This document shows positions 56,602 through 64,000 of a DNA stretch of 64,000 nucleotides, piece by piece. Positions within the stretch are counted from its first letter, which is position 1, and every line of letters starts with the position of its first letter. This stretch comes from Paenibacillus sp. FSL H8-0332. GTDB taxonomy: Bacteria; Bacillota; Bacilli; Paenibacillales; Paenibacillaceae. The translations under genes and the position numbers were made by a program. Location: NCBI RefSeq assembly GCF_037963835.1, contig NZ_CP150145.1, positions 1,178,001 through 1,242,000 of the forward strand. Reading direction: 5' to 3'. The notes beneath the pieces were generated by a model, which was given only the letters and a program-made list of their open reading frames with translations, did no database searches and was not told where the DNA came from.

Positions 56602-57303
56602 TTGCCTGGAATCATAAGCACGATTGCGCTGCTGATCAAAGAACTGACGCTGCTGGTATCTTACGTAAGGAACAACGCTTTTCCCCAACCTCTATCGGAG
56701 CAGGATGAGAGCAAATACTTAGGGATGATGGCCGAAGGAGATGCCAAAGCGCGAAACCTGCTGATTGAGCATAACCTGCGGCTGGTTGCCCATATAGTGA
56801 AGAAATTCGACAACACAGGCGAAGATATGGAGGACCTGATCTCCATCGGCACCATCGGCCTGATCAAGGCCATTGAGAGCTACCGCCCGAACAAGGGCAC
56901 GAAGCTGGCTACTTTTGCGGCTAGATGTATAGAGAACGAAATCCTGATGCACTTACGCTCGCTGAAAAAGACCCGCAAAGACGTATCCCTCCACGATCCA
57001 ATCGGAACGGATAAGGAAGGTAACGAGATCACCCTGATCGATATCCTCGGTTCAGAGGCCGATGATGTGATCAAGGAAGTTGATCTTAAAATCGAGAAGA
57101 GCAAGATTTATCGGAACCTGGATATATTGGATGAACGCGAGAAGGAAGTCGTGGTAGGGCGATTTGGTTTGGATACAGGCGGAGAAGAGCGGACGCAGCG
57201 GGAGATTGCGAAGGACTTAGGAATCTCCCGGAGTTATGTGTCGCGGATTGAGAAGAGGGCGCTGATGAAGCTGTATCATGAGTTTTATAAGGTGAAGCGA
57301 TGA
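56602..57303 (+). CDS. sigK: sporulation sigma factor K precursor (pro-sigma-K)
   Basis: The 233-residue protein is full-length sigma-K: an N-terminal pro-sequence (SIITALLIK-like hydrophobic stretch, residues 3-20), region 2 with [14 protein letters not shown] and [17 protein letters not shown], and region 4 ending in [23 protein letters not shown] 56,602 is used because GGGAGGTG lies 8 bp upstream. It directs late mother-cell gene expression after pro-sequence cleavage. Unlike the B. subtilis gene it is not split by a skin element, but a second 3' copy lies 560 bp downstream. Confidence 0.95.
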
Positions 57304-57474: not shown

Positions 57475-57798
57475 GTGAACATTGATCCTGATGCACTAGC
57501 CCGCAAAATCAATAATGGGAATCCTGAAAGAAGTAAAGTATCTGCAGGAAAAGAAGCTATAAGAATAGCCAGGGAATGCATCCGAAATAAGTGGGACTTC
57601 ACCGTGGAAACTACTTTAGTTGGTGGTAACGTTTTAAGGCAGATGAGGGACGCAAAGGAGCAGGGCTATAAAATCATTATGTTTTATGTGGGACTAGGTG
57701 ATGTTCGGCTAAACGGGATAAAGTATCATTTAAATGAAATTCCCGAATGGACACAATTAATTGATAGACAATTACAAATTAAATATAAAGAAGCATAA
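57475..57798 (+). pseudogene. fragment of a zeta-toxin-like kinase
   Basis: The 107-residue frame (GTG start, GAGGT site) reads like the middle of a zeta-toxin/predicted ABC-type ATPase protein: NIDPDALARKIN, SAGKEAIRIARECI, FTVETTLVGG and GYKIIMFYVGLGD are typical of that family. The N-terminal P-loop (GxxGxGKST) that should lie about 30 residues earlier is absent, and the C-terminal part is replaced by an unrelated tail ending KYKEA. It therefore cannot be a working kinase. It lies between the two sigK copies and looks like the remnant of a mobile or accessory segment. Confidence 0.7.
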
Positions 57799-57840
57799 AA
57801 ACCAATTCGATCGGAAAGGATCGTAATTGGTTTATTTTTT
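57799..57840 (+). terminator. terminator after the zeta fragment
   Basis: AAACCAATT (57,799-57,807) pairs with AATTGGTTT (57,825-57,833), with an inner GATC stem, followed by TTTTTT. Confidence 0.85.
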
Positions 57841-57865
57841 GACATCGTATCGTGTCCATAACCTC

Positions 57866-58369
57866 AAGAAATTCGACAACACCGGCGAAGACATGGAGGA
57901 CCTGATCTCCATCGGCACGATTGGGCTGATCAAGGCCATCGAGAGCTACCGCCCGAACAAGGGAACGAAGCTGGCTACTTTTGCGGCTCGTTGTATAGAG
58001 AATGAGATATTGATGCATCTCCGTTCGCTGAAAAAAACCCGCAAGGACGTATCCCTCCACGATCCGATTGGGACAGATAAGGAAGGCAATGAGATCACGC
58101 TGATCGATATCCTCGGCTCCTAGGCAGATGATGTGATCAAGGAAGTGGATTTGAAAATTGAGAAAAGTAAGATCTATCGTAACCTCGATATTCTGGATGA
58201 GCGGGAGAAGGAGGTCGTCGTGGGCCGCTTCGGCTTGGACACGGGAGGAGAAGAGCGGACGCAGCGGGAGATTGCGAAGGACCTGGGGATCTCGCGGAGC
58301 TATGTGTCGCGGATTGAGAAGAGGGCGCTCATGAAGCTGTATCATGAGTTTTATAAGGTGAAAAGGTGA
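57866..58369 (+). pseudogene. 3' copy of sigK with amber stop
   Basis: This 504-bp stretch matches sigK from codon 67 (56,800-57,303) with no insertion or deletion up to the TGA. By eye some 60-70 bases differ, all silent except one: GAG (Glu152) has become TAG at 58,121-58,123. It has no 5' part, so it cannot give a sigma factor even with read-through. The silent pattern shows that it descends from a functional sigK of a related strain or species, not from recent tandem duplication. It lies exactly at the border to the AT-rich island. Confidence 0.93.
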
Positions 58370-58408
58370 AACGCAAATCAATTAGTTTTGCTAACAATAG
58401 AGTTTTAA

Positions 58409-58444
58409 AAAGCAACTTATCGGTGGATGAGTTGCTTTCGTTTT
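58409..58444 (+). terminator. terminator after the sigK copy
   Basis: AAAGCAACT pairs with AGTTGCTTT, followed by CGTTTT. Similar in place to what a sigK terminator would be. Confidence 0.7.
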
Positions 58445-58586
58445 GTTGTGGGATGATGGATTCGGTTGTTGTGTAAAATTAATGCCGTTTCTACATTCTC
58501 AGAGGCAGAAAGAAGATCCTGTAGAAATTGGATTAACGCTGCTGTATCTACCCTTTTCTAACTCTTAATAATTTGATTTTTTTTCA

Positions 58587-58615
58587 TTGACATATAAAAA
58601 GGGTAATAGTAATAT
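58587..58615 (+). promoter_or_regulatory. promoter of the AT-rich island operon
   Basis: TTGACA (58,587-58,592), 17 bp, then TAATAT (58,610-58,615). It precedes the first island gene by about 95 bp and is the only clear promoter before seven same-strand genes. Confidence 0.6.
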
Positions 58616-58708
58616 TATGACATGTAAATAAAAGTTAATATAATGAAAAATAGATATCATAAGTATTTATTTGGATCATATGTTTCTTTAAACAAGGAGT
58701 TGTTTAAT

Positions 58709-59194
58709 TTGGTTTATTTTTTAAGTTTTTTTGGTGCTCTAATAACATTGTTTTTATTGATATATATAAAATGGGATTTTGGCCGCCTCTCTATAAGGAG
58801 AAAGGCATCCGTTCGAAATAAGCAATATGAGCTTGAGAGAGGTCAGAATTTCCCTATTGTTTTAACCTCTAATAAGGATGCTGTAGCATTATTTTTATCG
58901 GCTAGTTGTTTGACCTGTCATGAAGTTATGGAAAATTTCAATGCTTTAAGACAAAAATGGTGTGATATGGAGTTTGAGTTGTTCATTCGCGGAAGTGAGG
59001 AGGAGATTTTATATCTGATAGACAAACACAAAATTTCTACTCACTTCGTTAAACTTAATGAAACAGACAAGAAAGTATACGGTGTAAGGGTATTGCCCTA
59101 TATGTACTATATTTGCAGAAATAATAAGGTCTTATCGGGAGGGATTATAAATGAAATAAAAGATATAGAAAAGATTATTTCTCTTGGTACATAG
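58709..59194 (+). CDS. membrane-anchored thioredoxin-fold protein 1 (CLTC)
   Basis: TTG 58,709 lies 9 bp after AAGGAG and gives a 161-residue protein: one N-terminal membrane helix (VYFLSFFGALITLFLLIYI), a basic stretch, then a thioredoxin-like domain with ALFLSASCLTCHEV carrying a CxxC. A cis-Pro-type GVRVLPYMYYICR follows. ATG 58,643 upstream has no good ribosome site and adds only polar residues. It resembles MauD/TlpA-type redoxins. It heads an operon-like run with three further redoxins, so thiol or disulfide chemistry is the likely task. Base composition is far more AT-rich than the genes before 58,370. Confidence 0.8.
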   Translation: MVYFLSFFGALITLFLLIYIKWDFGRLSIRRKASVRNKQYELERGQNFPIVLTSNKDAVALFLSASCLTCHEVMENFNALRQKWCDMEFELFIRGSEEEILYLIDKHKISTHFVKLNETDKKVYGVRVLPYMYYICRNNKVLSGGIINEIKDIEKIISLGT

Positions 59195-59244
59195 ACGTTG
59201 AAATAGTAGTTTTTAAAAGCTTTTGTGAGGAGGATGAAATAAGG

Positions 59245-59670
59245 ATGTTTGAAGATAACTTAAGAATTAAGAAGTTAGTTCCGCAGAAACAGTTTTTAAA
59301 TGATAAAAACAAAAAAAAAAACATATTTAATAGTAAGAAAGAAACTTTGTTAATCTTTCTTTCTACATACTGTATTCGTTGCCTTAACCTTCTGCCTAAT
59401 ATAAATAAGCTAAAGTCACTACCTAATGTATCCGTGCTTCTCTTCACTGACGGAGATAAAAGCGATCATTCTGATATAAAAAAGATGTATTCTATAAAAT
59501 TTGACATGATTTGTATTGATGAGGATCAGTTAAGTGAAGATTTTCATGTTAATATCCATCCATTTTTTATGTTAGTTGATACGAAGGGAGAGATTTATCA
59601 TAAAGGTGAGTTGAAAACTATAGAAGACTTAATAGATCAGATCAGTACATTGAATCAGTTCACTGACTAG
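59245..59670 (+). CDS. thioredoxin-fold protein 2 (CIRC), no membrane anchor
   Basis: The 141-residue protein has a thioredoxin-like core, LLIFLSTYCIRCLNLLPNIN, with a CxxC, and a late VNIHPFFMLVDTKGEI that matches the cis-Pro segment and last strands. There is no signal peptide or membrane helix. A GAGGAGGATG site lies upstream. It follows redoxin 1 by 50 bp. It may be the cytoplasmic partner of the anchored redoxins or act with the cysteine desulfurase that follows. Confidence 0.75.
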   Translation: MFEDNLRIKKLVPQKQFLNDKNKKKNIFNSKKETLLIFLSTYCIRCLNLLPNINKLKSLPNVSVLLFTDGDKSDHSDIKKMYSIKFDMICIDEDQLSEDFHVNIHPFFMLVDTKGEIYHKGELKTIEDLIDQISTLNQFTD

Positions 59671-59714
59671 TTAGTTTTTAATAGCAAATTTTTTAAAGAG
59701 AGAAGAGGAAAAAA

Positions 59715-60890
59715 ATGAGGCTTCTTTATCTGGATTACTGTGCTTCTGCTCCTATCCACCCAAAGGTATACGAGCATTACATAAAAGCATCCAAAGAATT
59801 GTATGCAAATCCTTCTTCGGCACATCAGTTAGGATTTGAATCTAACGGAATCGTAGAAGAGGCGAGAGAGGATATAGCAAGTATTCTAGAAATTTCACCG
59901 AGAGAAGTTATCTTTACTTCTGGAGCAACAGAAAGCAACAATTTAGCGATTATAGGAGTCGCTAGAGCAGCGAGAAAGAGTTCAACTGAGAAAGTACATA
60001 TTATTACTTCAGTGATTGAGCATTCCTCTGTCTTCAATTGTTGCAAATATCTAGAGGAGGAAGGTTTTGAGATTACTTATGTGCCTGTTGATATGGATGG
60101 TAGGGTCAGCGTTGAGACAATAAAAAATTCAATTAAAAGCAATACTATTTTGGTTAGCATTATGCATGTCAATAATGAAACTGGTACAATCCAACCCATA
60201 GACGAAATTTCCAAAATGATAAAGGGTAAGGGGAATATTTTCTTTCATGTCGATGGGGTTCAAGGATTCACTAAAGCTGCAATAGATTTAAGTGACATAG
60301 ATCTTTACACGCTTTCAGGTCATAAAATAGGGGCTGCGAAAGGAGTAGGTGTTCTAATCGTTAAAGAAAATATTAAGTTGAAACCTATGATATTTGGAGG
60401 TGGGCAGGAAGCTGGGCTGAGGTCTGGAACAACTAATGTTCCAGGTGTTATTTCATTAGCAGAAGCGATAAAAATAGGGATTTTGGAGAAAAACGAAAAA
60501 ATGGAATATATAAAAAAATTAAATGCGTTTATAGTTGATGGATTAAAAAGTATACCTGGTATTGTAATTAATAGCCCGGGAGGAGAAATTTCATCACCCC
60601 ATATCTTGAACATCTCTTCTACAGAACCAGGGTTAAATTCAGCGATCATATTAAATCTACTTTCAAAGAAAGGCATTATTGCCTCATCTCAGTCGGCTTG
60701 CTCATCGAAATCCAATAAGCAAAGCAGAATTTTGATGGAGATGACAAACGATACTCTCATCTCTTCAAATAGCGTTAGATTTAGTTTCAATGAATCAGTA
60801 AACCGGGAAGATGCAGAGTACTTACTTGACTCGCTTGAAAAAATTATTATTCAGGTTAGAAAAAATGGAAGGTTTGCTGTTTCTATCTAG
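59715..60890 (+). CDS. NifS/IscS-like cysteine desulfurase
   Basis: The 391-residue PLP enzyme has the complete family pattern: YLDYCASAPIHPKV, SGATESNNLAI, His103 in VIEHSSV, Asp180 and Gln183 in HVDGVQGF, Schiff-base Lys204 in TLSGHKIGAAKG, RSGTTNVPG, and the active-site Cys329 in SQSACSSKSNK. It removes sulfur from cysteine as an enzyme-bound persulfide. No IscU, ThiI or MnmA gene is near, and the genes around it encode redoxins and an exporter. This suggests a dedicated role, for example sulfur delivery to a peptide or control of cysteine, rather than general Fe-S assembly. AT-rich codon use marks it as acquired. Confidence 0.9.
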   Translation: MRLLYLDYCASAPIHPKVYEHYIKASKELYANPSSAHQLGFESNGIVEEAREDIASILEISPREVIFTSGATESNNLAIIGVARAARKSSTEKVHIITSVIEHSSVFNCCKYLEEEGFEITYVPVDMDGRVSVETIKNSIKSNTILVSIMHVNNETGTIQPIDEISKMIKGKGNIFFHVDGVQGFTKAAIDLSDIDLYTLSGHKIGAAKGVGVLIVKENIKLKPMIFGGGQEAGLRSGTTNVPGVISLAEAIKIGILEKNEKMEYIKKLNAFIVDGLKSIPGIVINSPGGEISSPHILNISSTEPGLNSAIILNLLSKKGIIASSQSACSSKSNKQSRILMEMTNDTLISSNSVRFSFNESVNREDAEYLLDSLEKIIIQVRKNGRFAVSI

Positions 60891-60905
60891 AAAAATGATG
60901 GGATT

Positions 60906-61418
60906 GTGAGCTTATTGCTAATGATTTTTTTTCTTTCAATTGTTCTGTTGTTGGCTTTGATTTTTATTATCCTTGTGTCTAGGAAGATAAGTTACGTTCT
61001 TCCTATGGTAGAGGAAAAGAAAAAATTTCAAAAGCCTCTGGATAATACCTTAAGTCAGTATAAAGTGCATGACTTGATTGACTTGCCGGATGACTATCGT
61101 AACTTTCCATACATAGTATTGATATTAAGTGCTACTTGTGGTGAATGTGCTTTAGCGATAGATGAGTTATTAGATGGAAATAAGGAGATAAAGGCCAAAC
61201 TTATTGCTTTTCTGCTAGATGATGGAAGTAGTAAAGCGATGAAAGATTTTCATGATTTATTTGATAAGCAAATTACGATCATTGATATTAGCCTTGAAAC
61301 ATTTTATAAACTGAACTTAAGCACAATTCCAAGCTTTTTGATTATTGATGGAACTGGTCAAATTGTTTCGAAGAAAATCACTATGAAGGCTACAGTGATA
61401 AGATGGAAGGAATTATGA
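60906..61418 (+). CDS. membrane-anchored thioredoxin-fold protein 3 (CGEC)
   Basis: GTG 60,906 gives a 170-residue protein with a long N-terminal membrane helix (LLLMIFFLSIVLLLALIFII), then a basic linker and a thioredoxin-like domain: VLILSATCGECALAIDEL (CxxC) and LNLSTIPSFLIIDGTGQIV with the cis-Pro. The ribosome site (ATGGGATT) is weak, and the 15-bp gap to the desulfurase suggests coupled translation. Confidence 0.78.
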   Translation: MSLLLMIFFLSIVLLLALIFIILVSRKISYVLPMVEEKKKFQKPLDNTLSQYKVHDLIDLPDDYRNFPYIVLILSATCGECALAIDELLDGNKEIKAKLIAFLLDDGSSKAMKDFHDLFDKQITIIDISLETFYKLNLSTIPSFLIIDGTGQIVSKKITMKATVIRWKEL

Positions 61419-61462
61419 CATGAAGTTGAATTGGTATCCAGTGTTGTTGAGGGGAGAAAGCG

Positions 61463-63244
61463 ATGGATTTCAAGACTATCATACGTAGCAGTAGATACGT
61501 ATGGATGAAACGGAAAAGTTTAATTTATACTTCTGTTCTTTTTAGTCTCATATTTGGAGTGCTACCTTATTTCAATTTACTAACAACAAAACATTTACTT
61601 AATGAAATAACTGAATTGTTTACAAATGGTAACCATGTTTTTTCCACAATTATTCTATTGTTATGTGCTCAGTTTATTTTGCAAGTGGTGAGTTTCGCAT
61701 GTAGTTACATTCAACAGTATTTGGAAAAAAAAAATATTACTCTGCTTGAACATAGCTTAAGACTTGATGTTTTCAATAAATTAAATGAGATGCCTTTATG
61801 TATGTATGATGATCCTGAATTCCATAATCACTTAAATAGAATAAACAGCAACCTAGGAACCAGATTCTGGGAACCGCTGAAGAATTTCTCGGGTATGATT
61901 AGTGTTGTAATTACATTATCTTCTTATGCTGTGATTTTATTTTCAGTTCATTGGTCGTTAATTATTCTTTGTATTGTGGCCTCTATTCCTTCTTTTATTT
62001 TGTATTCTTTTCTTGAAAAGAAGAGGTACAAATTTAACGTCAAGAATGTTCTTTTGAGCAGGGAAATCAATTTTATTAATGGTATTTTAACTGAACGGGA
62101 TAATGTCAAAGAATTAAAAGTCTTTGCGTTAGGAAGATACTTTCAGGAAAGGTGGAGTCAGAAATATTTAGAATATACTAAAGGGATAAATAATTTGGAC
62201 AAGGAACAAAGTAGATCGAGAATGATCTTAGATACAATTAATTCAGTTTTTTACATATTATTCGCGGTTTTTCTTGTTTATATAATAAAAAGAAACAAAA
62301 ATATGCTTATCGGTAATTTTGTAATAGCTAATCAAGCTCTCATTAATACTCAAACTTCTTTAAGGCAATTGTCAAATTTTTTTTCTGAAACAAAAGGAAA
62401 TGTACTATTTTTGAATGACTATTTTGAATTTTTGAATATTCCTATTAATGAGAAGAATATTATCGCTGACGAAAAGGTTGAATACAGGCAAGAAGCACCC
62501 TATATCTGTTTCAAAAATGTTTATTTTAAATATAAGAATCAAGGCACATATACATTAAGAGACATCAATCTTTCAATTAATCAAGGTGAGAAGATTGCTA
62601 TAATTGGCGAGAATGGTTCTGGAAAAAGTACTCTTCTCAAATGTTTAGCTGGTCTATACACGGAGACTGAAGGAGATATTCTTCTGGAGGGTAGAAAGAT
62701 CCGTGAAATGCCTGAAGATGAGATTCAGGATAAATTCTCAGTTATTTTCCAGGATTTTATTAAGTACCCTTATTCTATAAAAGAAAATATTATGTTTGGA
62801 AATATACAGAACTCAAATGATAGCGACATTATAGAGGCTGCTCAACACTCCAATATACATAGCTTCATTAATGGTTTACCTGATGGCTACGATACGTATT
62901 TAGGTAACTATTTAAAGATTGGAATTGATTTTTCAGGGGGGCAATGGCAAAAATTAGCTATTTCACGTGCGTTGTTCAAGAATTCAGATATATTAATTCT
63001 TGATGAACCAACCTCATCATTAGATTCAAAATCGGAAATTGATATTTATAACCATTTATTCAATGTGATAGAAAATAAAACTATCATATTTGTCTCGCAC
63101 AGAATAGCTGCGGCCAGAAATGCGGATAAAATAATTATGATTAAAGACGGTGTAATTCTAGAAGAAGGCAATCATGAAGCACTATTAAATGCAAGAGGAG
63201 AGTACTATAAGCTTTATCATATGCAATTAAAGTACATCAACTAA
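61463..63244 (+). CDS. ABC exporter, fused membrane and ATPase domains
   Basis: The 593-residue protein is a half-size type I ABC exporter: six membrane helices over about 15-310, then an ATPase with Walker A GENGSGKST, a Q-loop (IFQDFIKYPYS), signature FSGGQWQKLAISRAL, Walker B ILILDEPTSSLD and VSHR. There is no N-terminal C39 peptidase domain, so any leader peptide must be cut by another protease. It would work as a homodimer. The position between redoxins and a small Cys-rich peptide suggests that it exports that peptide or provides self-protection. A GAGGGGAG site precedes ATG. Confidence 0.9.
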   Translation: MDFKTIIRSSRYVWMKRKSLIYTSVLFSLIFGVLPYFNLLTTKHLLNEITELFTNGNHVFSTIILLLCAQFILQVVSFACSYIQQYLEKKNITLLEHSLRLDVFNKLNEMPLCMYDDPEFHNHLNRINSNLGTRFWEPLKNFSGMISVVITLSSYAVILFSVHWSLIILCIVASIPSFILYSFLEKKRYKFNVKNVLLSREINFINGILTERDNVKELKVFALGRYFQERWSQKYLEYTKGINNLDKEQSRSRMILDTINSVFYILFAVFLVYIIKRNKNMLIGNFVIANQALINTQTSLRQLSNFFSETKGNVLFLNDYFEFLNIPINEKNIIADEKVEYRQEAPYICFKNVYFKYKNQGTYTLRDINLSINQGEKIAIIGENGSGKSTLLKCLAGLYTETEGDILLEGRKIREMPEDEIQDKFSVIFQDFIKYPYSIKENIMFGNIQNSNDSDIIEAAQHSNIHSFINGLPDGYDTYLGNYLKIGIDFSGGQWQKLAISRALFKNSDILILDEPTSSLDSKSEIDIYNHLFNVIENKTIIFVSHRIAAARNADKIIMIKDGVILEEGNHEALLNARGEYYKLYHMQLKYIN

Positions 63245-63268
63245 TGTCATTTTTTCAAGGAGAAAACC

Positions 63269-63787
63269 ATGAATAATTTTTTGTTGATCTCTAACATAAT
63301 TCTATGGGTTGTTGTGTTGATTGTAATCATATTGATGTATTTCTTAATAAGAACGATAGCTTCATTTGTGGACAAGTTTACGGATAAAATCCCTTCTACA
63401 TCCGATTTAGCCGGAATAAAAACGGGGGACTTAATTCCAAAGTTTAAAGCTAAAAATCAAAGAAATGAAATTATTCTATCCAGCAATTATTACGGTAAAA
63501 AATTGGTGTTTTTAAGCGACGAATGTGGAACATGTGTAGAAGTCTTGAAACGTATGAGTTTGTATACCAATCTCAATGATTTCCTTGTTATCAAATCAAT
63601 TTCATTTGGAGATAGTTTAAGTGATATAGAATATCCAATTTCAATTATCAGATCTAAAAAGATTATTAAATTATTTGGTGTAGTAAAAGTGCCTACAATT
63701 ATGACTGTAAATGATGCCGGAAGAGTAAGTGGCATTGATGAACTAACACACATGGATAATTTAGTATCTCTTCTTAGGTTCTCATAA
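63269..63787 (+). CDS. membrane-anchored thioredoxin-fold protein 4 (CGTC, MauD-like)
   Basis: The 172-residue protein has an N-terminal membrane helix (ISNIILWVVVLIVIILMYFL), a linker, then a redoxin domain beginning TGDLIPKFKAKNQRNEI as in MauD/TlpA proteins, with LVFLSDECGTCVEVL (CxxC) and VVKVPTIMTVNDAGRVSG. It starts 25 bp after the exporter gene with a CAAGGAG site. MauD relatives help to form disulfides in small cysteine-rich subunits outside the membrane, a useful model for a Cys-rich peptide substrate. Confidence 0.82.
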   Translation: MNNFLLISNIILWVVVLIVIILMYFLIRTIASFVDKFTDKIPSTSDLAGIKTGDLIPKFKAKNQRNEIILSSNYYGKKLVFLSDECGTCVEVLKRMSLYTNLNDFLVIKSISFGDSLSDIEYPISIIRSKKIIKLFGVVKVPTIMTVNDAGRVSGIDELTHMDNLVSLLRFS

Positions 63788-63818
63788 TTTAATATGCTGA
63801 AAGGAGGTGAAGAAACGT

Positions 63819-63845
63819 ATGGATAAGAAACTTTGGATTACATAA
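63819..63845 (+). CDS. 8-residue open frame with a perfect Shine-Dalgarno
   Basis: AAGGAGGTGA (63,801-63,810), an exact anti-16S match, precedes ATG 63,819, which encodes only MDKKLWIT before TAA. Such a strong site on so short a frame suggests a decayed peptide gene or a translated leader for the next gene. Confidence 0.4.
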   Translation: MDKKLWIT

Positions 63846-63896
63846 ATTTGTGAATTGAAGATATTAAGTAGTTAAAAAAACTTAAAAAAGGATGAG

Positions 63897-64000
63897 ATGA
63901 TTATTATGAGTATGTTATCCAAAGCTTTGGGAATTCAACCGAGGGTAGCAATTTGTTCTTGTACTGTTACAAAAAATCTCTGTAAAACAAGTTATTTGAC
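63897..64000 (+). CDS. start of a Cys/Ser/Thr-rich small peptide (RiPP precursor candidate), cut by window end
   Basis: ATG 63,897 (or in-frame ATG 63,906 or 63,912), after AAAAAAGGATGAG, opens a frame that is still open at the window edge. Thirty-four codons are visible. A leader-like start MSMLSKALGIQPRVA is followed by ICSCTVTKNLCKTSYL, in which three Cys and five Ser/Thr occur within 15 residues. This layout suits a ribosomal peptide that is modified or disulfide-bonded after synthesis (lantibiotic-, sactipeptide- or disulfide-type). No modification enzyme is visible; it would lie further downstream. The peptide class cannot be fixed without the rest. Confidence 0.6.
   Translation, partial: MIIMSMLSKALGIQPRVAICSCTVTKNLCKTSYL

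Follow-up and report, generated by a model that had tools for sequence, protein, structure and literature searches.

A cysteine desulfurase appears to replace MauE in a laterosporulin-type bacteriocin cassette of Paenibacillus

Gene content of an AT-rich island

We analysed a 64,000-nucleotide stretch of the Paenibacillus sp. FSL H8-0332 genome (G000:C1:1178001-1242000, hereafter the window; G000 is the 7.54-Mb single-contig source genome), at the right end of which a NifS-like cysteine desulfurase gene lies among genes for four thioredoxin-fold proteins (redoxins Rdx1–Rdx4), an ATP-binding cassette (ABC) exporter and a small Cys-rich peptide. Positions beyond 64,000 are window-equivalent coordinates, that is, window numbering carried on past the edge. 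The initial annotation had singled out seven same-strand genes with a guanine–cytosine (GC) content sharply below that of the preceding 58 kb, and both points are borne out: GC is 0.30–0.35 per kb at 59,001–64,000 and 0.43–0.63 per kb at 1–58,000, and all seven genes lie on the plus strand, from 58643 (or TTG 58709) to 64103.

The four redoxin sites first read by inspection are likewise distinct, and alignment places a CxxC motif and the cis-Pro position in all four proteins. Rdx1 (58709..59194, +; CLTC), Rdx3 (60906..61418, +; CGEC) and the MauD-like Rdx4 (63269..63787, +; CGTC) are anchored, and Rdx2 (59245..59670, +; CIRC), the partner of NifS in relatives, is not. The Rdx1 frame is also open from ATG 58643; TTG 58709, preceded by AAGGAG, is probably its start. 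Rdx2 matches Pfam Thioredoxin (26.0 bits, cut-off 23.5). Rdx1, Rdx3 and Rdx4 pass no Pfam cut-off, and Rdx1 is matched by no Pfam model; its structure model consists of an N-terminal helix and a thioredoxin fold (predicted local distance difference test score, pLDDT, 84.4), with ResA as closest PDB match (E 2.2e-7). Profiles searched against the PDB found the thioredoxin-fold chain YkuV for the Rdx1 group (E 0.003), and StoA and one other thioredoxin-fold chain for the Rdx3 group (E 0.0027). The MauD model TIGR02661 (cut-off 188.6 bits) was reached by neither Rdx2 (36.8 bits) nor Rdx4 (18.9 bits).

The NifS-like protein (59715..60890, +; PF00266, E 6.9e-73) is close to solved desulfurases. Group I cysteine desulfurases are defined by a pyridoxal phosphate (PLP) lysine and a catalytic cysteine in the loop after SSxSAC, and the protein satisfies this signature with K204 and C329, which are intact, as proposed before, and invariant across the first three desulfurases aligned. 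Among the NCBIfam matches listed, the top scores go to NifS, DndA and IscS, each under its equivalog cut-off (NifS 335.8 against 530.75 bits, IscS 302.6 against 643.2, DndA 325.9 against 480). The enzyme thus shares family, PLP lysine and catalytic cysteine with IscS, NifS and DndA, but differs in falling below the equivalog cut-offs, in forming a clade of its own, in having a thioredoxin-fold partner and in lacking a scaffold. Four further matches to it occur in G000, the nearest 39% identical.

The exporter (61463..63244, +) combines permease and ATPase (Pfam ABC_membrane and ABC_tran), and no peptidase (C39) is among the 14 Pfam families listed, in agreement with the earlier reading. The short Cys-rich frame noted at the window edge is a real peptide gene, which we call PEP (63897-64103, +; window-equivalent end, 103 bp beyond the window); the thought that it might run on as a long protein falls away, as a stop at 64,103 leaves 68 amino acids with 8 Cys. 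Depending on the start, 16–19 residues precede the first Cys, a stretch that is partly conserved among relatives and of low confidence in the structure model. A single-sequence search of about 5.8 billion proteins returned only PEP itself, and a profile search returned 12 more proteins, all unnamed or hypothetical, some of which may be profile members; the PEP profile found nothing credible in the PDB (best E 0.74). Fulvocin C, a myxobacterial 8-Cys peptide, resembles PEP by eye and in Cys number.

A cassette of the laterosporulin type

The laterosporulin model NF033806 scored over its cut-off in 3 of 398 class genomes, all of one genus, and G000 gave no match in this family search. In all three genomes found, the laterosporulin gene sits within a cassette comprising the peptide, a CxFC redoxin, an exporter, an Rdx2-like redoxin (CSYC), MauE (CSCFG) and two further small proteins; the peptide of one locus (L228) matches the solved chains 4ozk and 6lwy (Laterosporulin3). 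The G000 island resembles this region of Brevibacillus, which encodes a class IId, defensin-like bacteriocin, in grouping a Cys-rich peptide with CxxC redoxins and an ABC exporter that lacks a peptidase domain. The two differ in that the laterosporulin cassette has MauE, a membrane protein bearing a CxC motif, adjoined by the Rdx2-like protein, whereas the island has NifS adjoined by Rdx2, no MauE, four redoxins and a LolD/FtsX-M1 pair. The laterosporulin open reading frame (ORF; L227/L228) encodes 50 amino acids with 6 Cys and no leader, whereas the island peptide has 8 Cys and a leader-like N terminus.

Laterosporulin contains three disulfide bonds (PMC6510442), and in the available portions of PMC3293901 and PMC6510442 its neighbours are named hypothetical, transporter, dehydrogenase or regulator. 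'Thioredoxin' and 'methylamine' have zero occurrences in the main texts of both papers, and the redoxin part of the cassette is not described in the portions available. We considered missing redoxin genes as the cause of failed laterosporulin-cluster expression and dropped the idea, as the 6.7-kb fragments used may well include them (PMC6510442, in part). Candidate families of ribosomally synthesized and post-translationally modified peptides (RiPPs) from Streptomyces, found by decRiPPter, carry MauE homologues (one family also a MauD homologue) next to precursors of 8 Cys or more (PMC7794033, in part). They resemble the MauE cassettes, with no NifS mentioned in the sections available, whereas the island lacks MauE. 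Because both the laterosporulin loci and these Streptomyces families resemble it, the general cassette is of a known kind, and the initial statement that no described system has such a gene set gives way to a described relative, the MauE/redoxin bacteriocin cassette. No bacteriocin cassette with a cysteine desulfurase is described in the literature listings we searched, which take in few subscription papers.

Searches in related genomes recovered further members. Rdx4 hit 21 of 197 family genomes, including G000, and 18 loci were fetched. L025 and L026 have NifS, redoxins, exporter, MauE and an 8-Cys peptide of 42–43 amino acids; L027 has LolD, FtsX-M1, exporter, MauE, a MauD-like redoxin and a 6-Cys peptide; L028–L032 and L035 have exporter, MauE and redoxins, with a PEP-like 6-Cys peptide of 63–65 amino acids in L028–L030. 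By eye, the remaining nine (L033, L034, L036–L042) hold no such cassette. Rdx2 searched at E 1e-5 matched in 86/394 family genomes and MauE in 50 of 392 order genomes, and 40 more loci were fetched from the top hits. In the class sample an Rdx2 match above 120 bits occurs in G000 alone (1/398), a limit that misses some Rdx2 because the divergent proteins of L191 and L200 score lower.

In 28 of the 40 loci (26 in a first pass) the cassette has a small Cys-rich ORF called nearby. Under a fixed rule (fewer than 80 amino acids, 6 or more Cys making up at least 9% of residues, within 5 kb either side of the centre), such an ORF is present in 25/40 loci compared with 2/68 control loci bearing other NifS genes and 0/40 when the outer ends of these 40 loci are scored. 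The Cys-rich ORFs are accompanied by exporter, redoxins and MauE. This enrichment and the likeness to laterosporulin uphold the earlier view of a peptide-biosynthesis locus centred on sulfur or disulfide chemistry. From these comparisons, the island appears to be a laterosporulin-type bacteriocin cassette and, within the MauE/redoxin group, a variant with NifS. The initial annotation had also suggested looking past the window for RiPP enzymes: no lanthionine synthetase, radical SAM, YcaO or glycosyltransferase is among the Pfam and NCBIfam matches listed for the nine island proteins, and with their enzymes lacking, we set aside the lanthipeptide and thioamide readings; for the protease part there is a Peptidase_M1 match just below cut-off, described below.

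Several features of the relatives stand apart. Two MauE-type cassettes carry repeated peptide genes: four identical 64-residue Cys-rich genes in tandem at L199:9129-10007, and two identical 67-residue ones at L188:12682-13175. In L190, L195, L198 and L226–L228, the neighbours of MauE are a protein of 138–160 amino acids, whose N terminus looks membrane-like and in which no CxxC was seen, and an unassigned protein of 129–202 amino acids. Solute-binding-protein-like genes (extracellular, by eye) cluster around the NifS-type loci L025, L026, L044 and L200.

Apparent replacement of MauE by NifS

We counted 11 distinct NifS loci (L003, L025, L026, L044, L045, L183, L185, L186, L187, L191 and L200). 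L043 has the same peptide and genes as L025, and L184 likewise matches L045, so each pair was counted once; L184 stays in the anchor counts, the Cys-rich-ORF counts and the 43-sequence MauE set. All 11 carry an Rdx2-type redoxin, and one of them, taken up below, shows no exporter in the fetched sequence. The 11 NifS proteins group together (100/100 support) as a single clade of an 84-row tree (four of 77 non-cassette loci were dropped for hits of insufficient length), separate from the others and on a long branch. A contig scan with two exact NifS patterns gave at least 80 loci, of which three are cassette loci (L043, L044, L045; 52–54% identity) and the other 77 (at most 44% identity) have no redoxin or MauE hit within about 8 kb.

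MauE is absent from four of the 11 (L003, L187, L191, L200), with no match in any of six frames at E 0.1 (in the 20-kb locus for G000), and the G000 genome gave no MauE match at E 1e-5 (nine of 25 first-look candidates scored). Where MauE persists beside NifS it lacks both motif Cys in three loci (L025, L044, L045) and one in two (L026, L183). By comparison, the CxC is intact in 42/42 NifS-less loci with MauE (35+3+3+1 across four sets). Fisher tests on this contrast gave 2.8e-5, 1.7e-5 and 1.2e-5 with 34, 38 and 41 NifS-less rows; these tests, like the one below, treat related strains as independent and are indicative only. L189, which has an Rdx2-like gene and no MauE, NifS or exporter in view, stands outside the MauE count, and L217, with a 38% identical NifS about 7 kb from its cassette, was not counted.

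The redoxin changes along with the enzyme: the third residue of the Rdx2 CxxC is R or K in 10/11 NifS loci versus 1/16 NifS-less ones (Fisher 1.4e-5). Among these 16 NifS-less Rdx2-like proteins (above 60 bits, three from laterosporulin loci) it is H in eight, Y in five and otherwise F, T or R.

The exchange can also be followed through exporters and peptides. In a tree of 50 exporters (from 53 loci; L189, L200 and L220 gave none above 100 bits, and L186 and L191 are partial), the NifS label needs four changes, three of them forced by supported branches, and 0/200 bootstrap trees need only one. Because each NifS group has NifS-less neighbours in this tree, the changes are best read as separate entries of a NifS module into different cassettes. 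PEP is 50% identical to the peptide of L213, a MauE cassette, with the same 8 Cys; the peptides of L187 (NifS) and L214 (MauE) are 64% identical with the same 8-Cys framework. L213 resembles the G000 cassette with MauE in place of NifS, Rdx1 and Rdx2, the Rdx3-like and CGTC redoxins being kept. L191, of the same genus as L213, is the nearest NifS relative and has two PEP-like genes (40% and 45%). Sequence comparison thus shows the identity of the cassette and the association of NifS with different cassettes, and that NifS replaces MauE in these cassettes is well supported.

Membrane side of the thiol relay

The initial annotation had the redoxins acting outside the membrane, and charge patterns point the other way. 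Under the positive-inside rule, 45 of 49 anchored redoxin rows have the redoxin domain next to the more positive flank, that is, the C terminus inside; one locus enters this count both as L045 and as L184. Seven of seven ResA/TlpA-type controls from other loci have the opposite orientation. A further 49 redoxin rows are unanchored, including the Rdx2 of every NifS locus, although three of these look anchored or miscalled (L208_9, L211_11, L216_14); both redoxins of the two laterosporulin loci tested are also unanchored. The redoxin domains are therefore firmly predicted by the charge rule to be cytosolic, and the CIRC redoxin, with no anchor at all, probably is too.

For 43 MauE proteins, with loop borders set by eye on one sequence, mean K+R is 4.33 in the first loop, 2.56 in the CxC loop and 3.09 at the C terminus, compared with 0.58 and 0.67 in the other two loops; the first loop is net positive in 41/43, the C terminus in 35/43 and the other two loops in 13 and 2. 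The MauE CxC thus probably faces the cytosol, less firmly than the redoxins. NifS, itself an enzyme of the cytosol, and export of a peptide that would already be folded both fit a cytosolic relay.

Proposed mechanism and alternatives

We propose, with moderate confidence, that in this laterosporulin-type cassette the oxidising role of MauE has passed to a NifS-derived persulfide, which acts through Rdx2 to fold the peptide ahead of export. The single product of the cassette would be an 8-Cys peptide that starts with a short leader-like stretch and whose cysteines would be matured in the cytosol by the thioredoxin-fold proteins. NifS would take sulfur off free cysteine and hand it on to Rdx2 as persulfide, an oxidant because its sulfur is formally S0; the second Cys of the Rdx2 CxxC would expel H2S, leaving oxidised Rdx2 to make the peptide disulfides. 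Rdx1, Rdx3 and Rdx4 would relay or proof-read, and the peptidase-less exporter would export the product. We infer the direction of electron flow, the persulfide relay, the disulfide end product and the antibacterial activity. The active site of DsbA, CPHC, is oxidising, so the CxHC common in NifS-less Rdx2 fits an oxidising role. For the relay there is precedent in vitro, where the persulfide of the desulfurase ABA3 is passed by STR18 to roGFP2, and human MST, a proposed persulfidase, oxidises roGFP2 (both in the available part of the review PMC11763069).

A broader version, which we put forward only tentatively, is that cytosolic disulfides here would be driven by a PLP enzyme, with desulfurase persulfide, a CxRC relay and released H2S making the chemistry quinone- and oxygen-independent, and with MauE replaced by a module mobile between cassettes. 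If true, this would join sulfur mobilisation to oxidative protein folding, usually separate fields. Peptides of the same framework with MauE in one genome and NifS in another offer natural testable pairs, and the cassette signature should reveal many unannotated Cys-rich peptides.

Several observations weigh against persulfide-driven folding. MauE keeps an intact CxC in two NifS loci, the near copies L185 and L186; several other strains are also near copies, the co-variation of the Rdx2 residue partly reflects shared descent because NifS forms one clade, and the exporter-tree changes may be gains or losses. At L191:11733-12542 the exporter ORF has just 269 amino acids and is apparently truncated, with its membrane part missing; L200 has NifS and a CMGC redoxin but no exporter in the fetched 20 kb, where only two ORFs, chance-looking, have at least 5 Cys. 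In 12 of the 40 fetched loci the cassette has no Cys-rich ORF called nearby, possibly through missed genes. PEP itself matches no NCBIfam family at E 0.1, including laterosporulin NF033806 at its 40-bit cut-off, and its structure model, with three strands, is of low confidence (pLDDT 61.7). Topology comes from the charge rule alone: two anchored rows are neutral and two reversed (Rdx3-like, L027 and L032), G000 Rdx1 scores as C-terminus-in from the TTG start and less clearly from the upstream ATG, where the N-terminal flank is also basic, and only 22/43 MauE CxC loops carry a net positive charge.

The best-surviving alternative, which we regard as doubtful, keeps the same cassette and lets NifS add sulfur, so that the mature peptide would carry a persulfide, trisulfide or other sulfur group and the loss of MauE would mean that the chemistry has moved away from simple disulfide exchange. 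A desulfurase with catalytic Lys and Cys stands beside a CxxC protein in all 11 loci, with an active site altered in 10, and extra redoxins of the L025 type have no membrane anchor, as this would suit; but peptides of NifS and MauE cassettes share the same 8 Cys in both pairs compared, and the nine island proteins gave no match to a further tailoring enzyme. The predicted cytosolic side and the unfixed electron direction would also allow a reducing relay, in which the peptide would be held reduced, and so harmless, in the cytosol by redoxins and NifS-derived sulfide until export, with spontaneous oxidation outside. This is unlikely: CxHC, in 8 of the 16 NifS-less Rdx2-like proteins, is like the oxidising site of DsbA, and a persulfide, being an oxidant, would be an odd choice.

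Building iron–sulfur clusters is the usual job of NifS and IscS, and the top NCBIfam scores would accord with sulfide supply for a metal–sulfur or iron–sulfur group on the Cys-rich peptide or a cassette protein. We consider this quite improbable, as the matches listed for the nine island proteins include no IscU, NifU or SufU scaffold, the loss of MauE would go unexplained, and laterosporulin, whose gene lies beside MauE, is a three-disulfide peptide (PMC6510442, in part). That NifS is a housekeeping or passenger gene present by chance is hardly credible: the four other matches in the genome and the intact MauE of L185/L186 would allow it, but one NifS clade recurs in several cassette types with an Rdx2-type redoxin, and MauE is lost or broken in 9/11.

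Flanking genes and island boundaries

A promoter-like site (TTGACA-17-TAATAT; 58587..58615, +) lies ahead of the operon. The gap that separates Rdx4 from the peptide gene contains an ORF of 8 codons (63819..63845, +), which follows a strong Shine–Dalgarno-like sequence and is possibly a regulatory leader. Next after the peptide gene come a LolD-like ATPase (window-equivalent 64168-64929) and a 1344-residue FtsX–M1 peptidase fusion (window-equivalent 64923-68957, = L003:7923-11957). In the fusion FtsX passes its Pfam cut-off and Peptidase_M1 scores 27.5 bits, just below the cut-off of 27.7; its translation contains HELAHQWFYG, which we take to be the zinc-site motif. The pair occurs in L003, L191, L213 and L027 and may serve leader trimming or immunity.

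GC is 0.53 at 56–57 kb, 0.38 at 58,001–59,000 and 0.38–0.41 per kb right of the window edge, to about 69 kb window-equivalent. An intact sigK-like gene (named by eye; 56602..57303, +; 233 amino acids) lies upstream of the island and served as the blastn reference for two partial copies. The left copy (57836..58383, +; blastn and own-genome search) bounds the island, and the right copy (window-equivalent 68988-69530) is 89% identical to it; outside the sigK-like part the two have about 17 bp in common. The sigK-like region was matched in 41/41 sampled genomes of the genus and at least twice in 37/41, some of the extra matches perhaps being other sigma-factor genes. The arrangement looks like repeated island insertion at sigK.

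Two further strains, read in part (the L240–L244 set), hold 10 partial sigK copies spaced about 2–20 kb apart with accessory genes between; seven of the 10 begin at sigK base 199 and nine end at base 681–702 of 702. Directly before the left partial copy in the window is a P-loop, zeta-toxin-like ORF or fragment (by eye; 57475-57798), and the same pair of zeta-toxin-like ORF and partial sigK occurs twice in another strain (L240:2135-2734 and L240:12871-13470). One sigK-bounded stretch of another strain, L240:14014-19137, carries the Wadjet defence genes JetA3, JetB3 and JetC3 (PADLOC).

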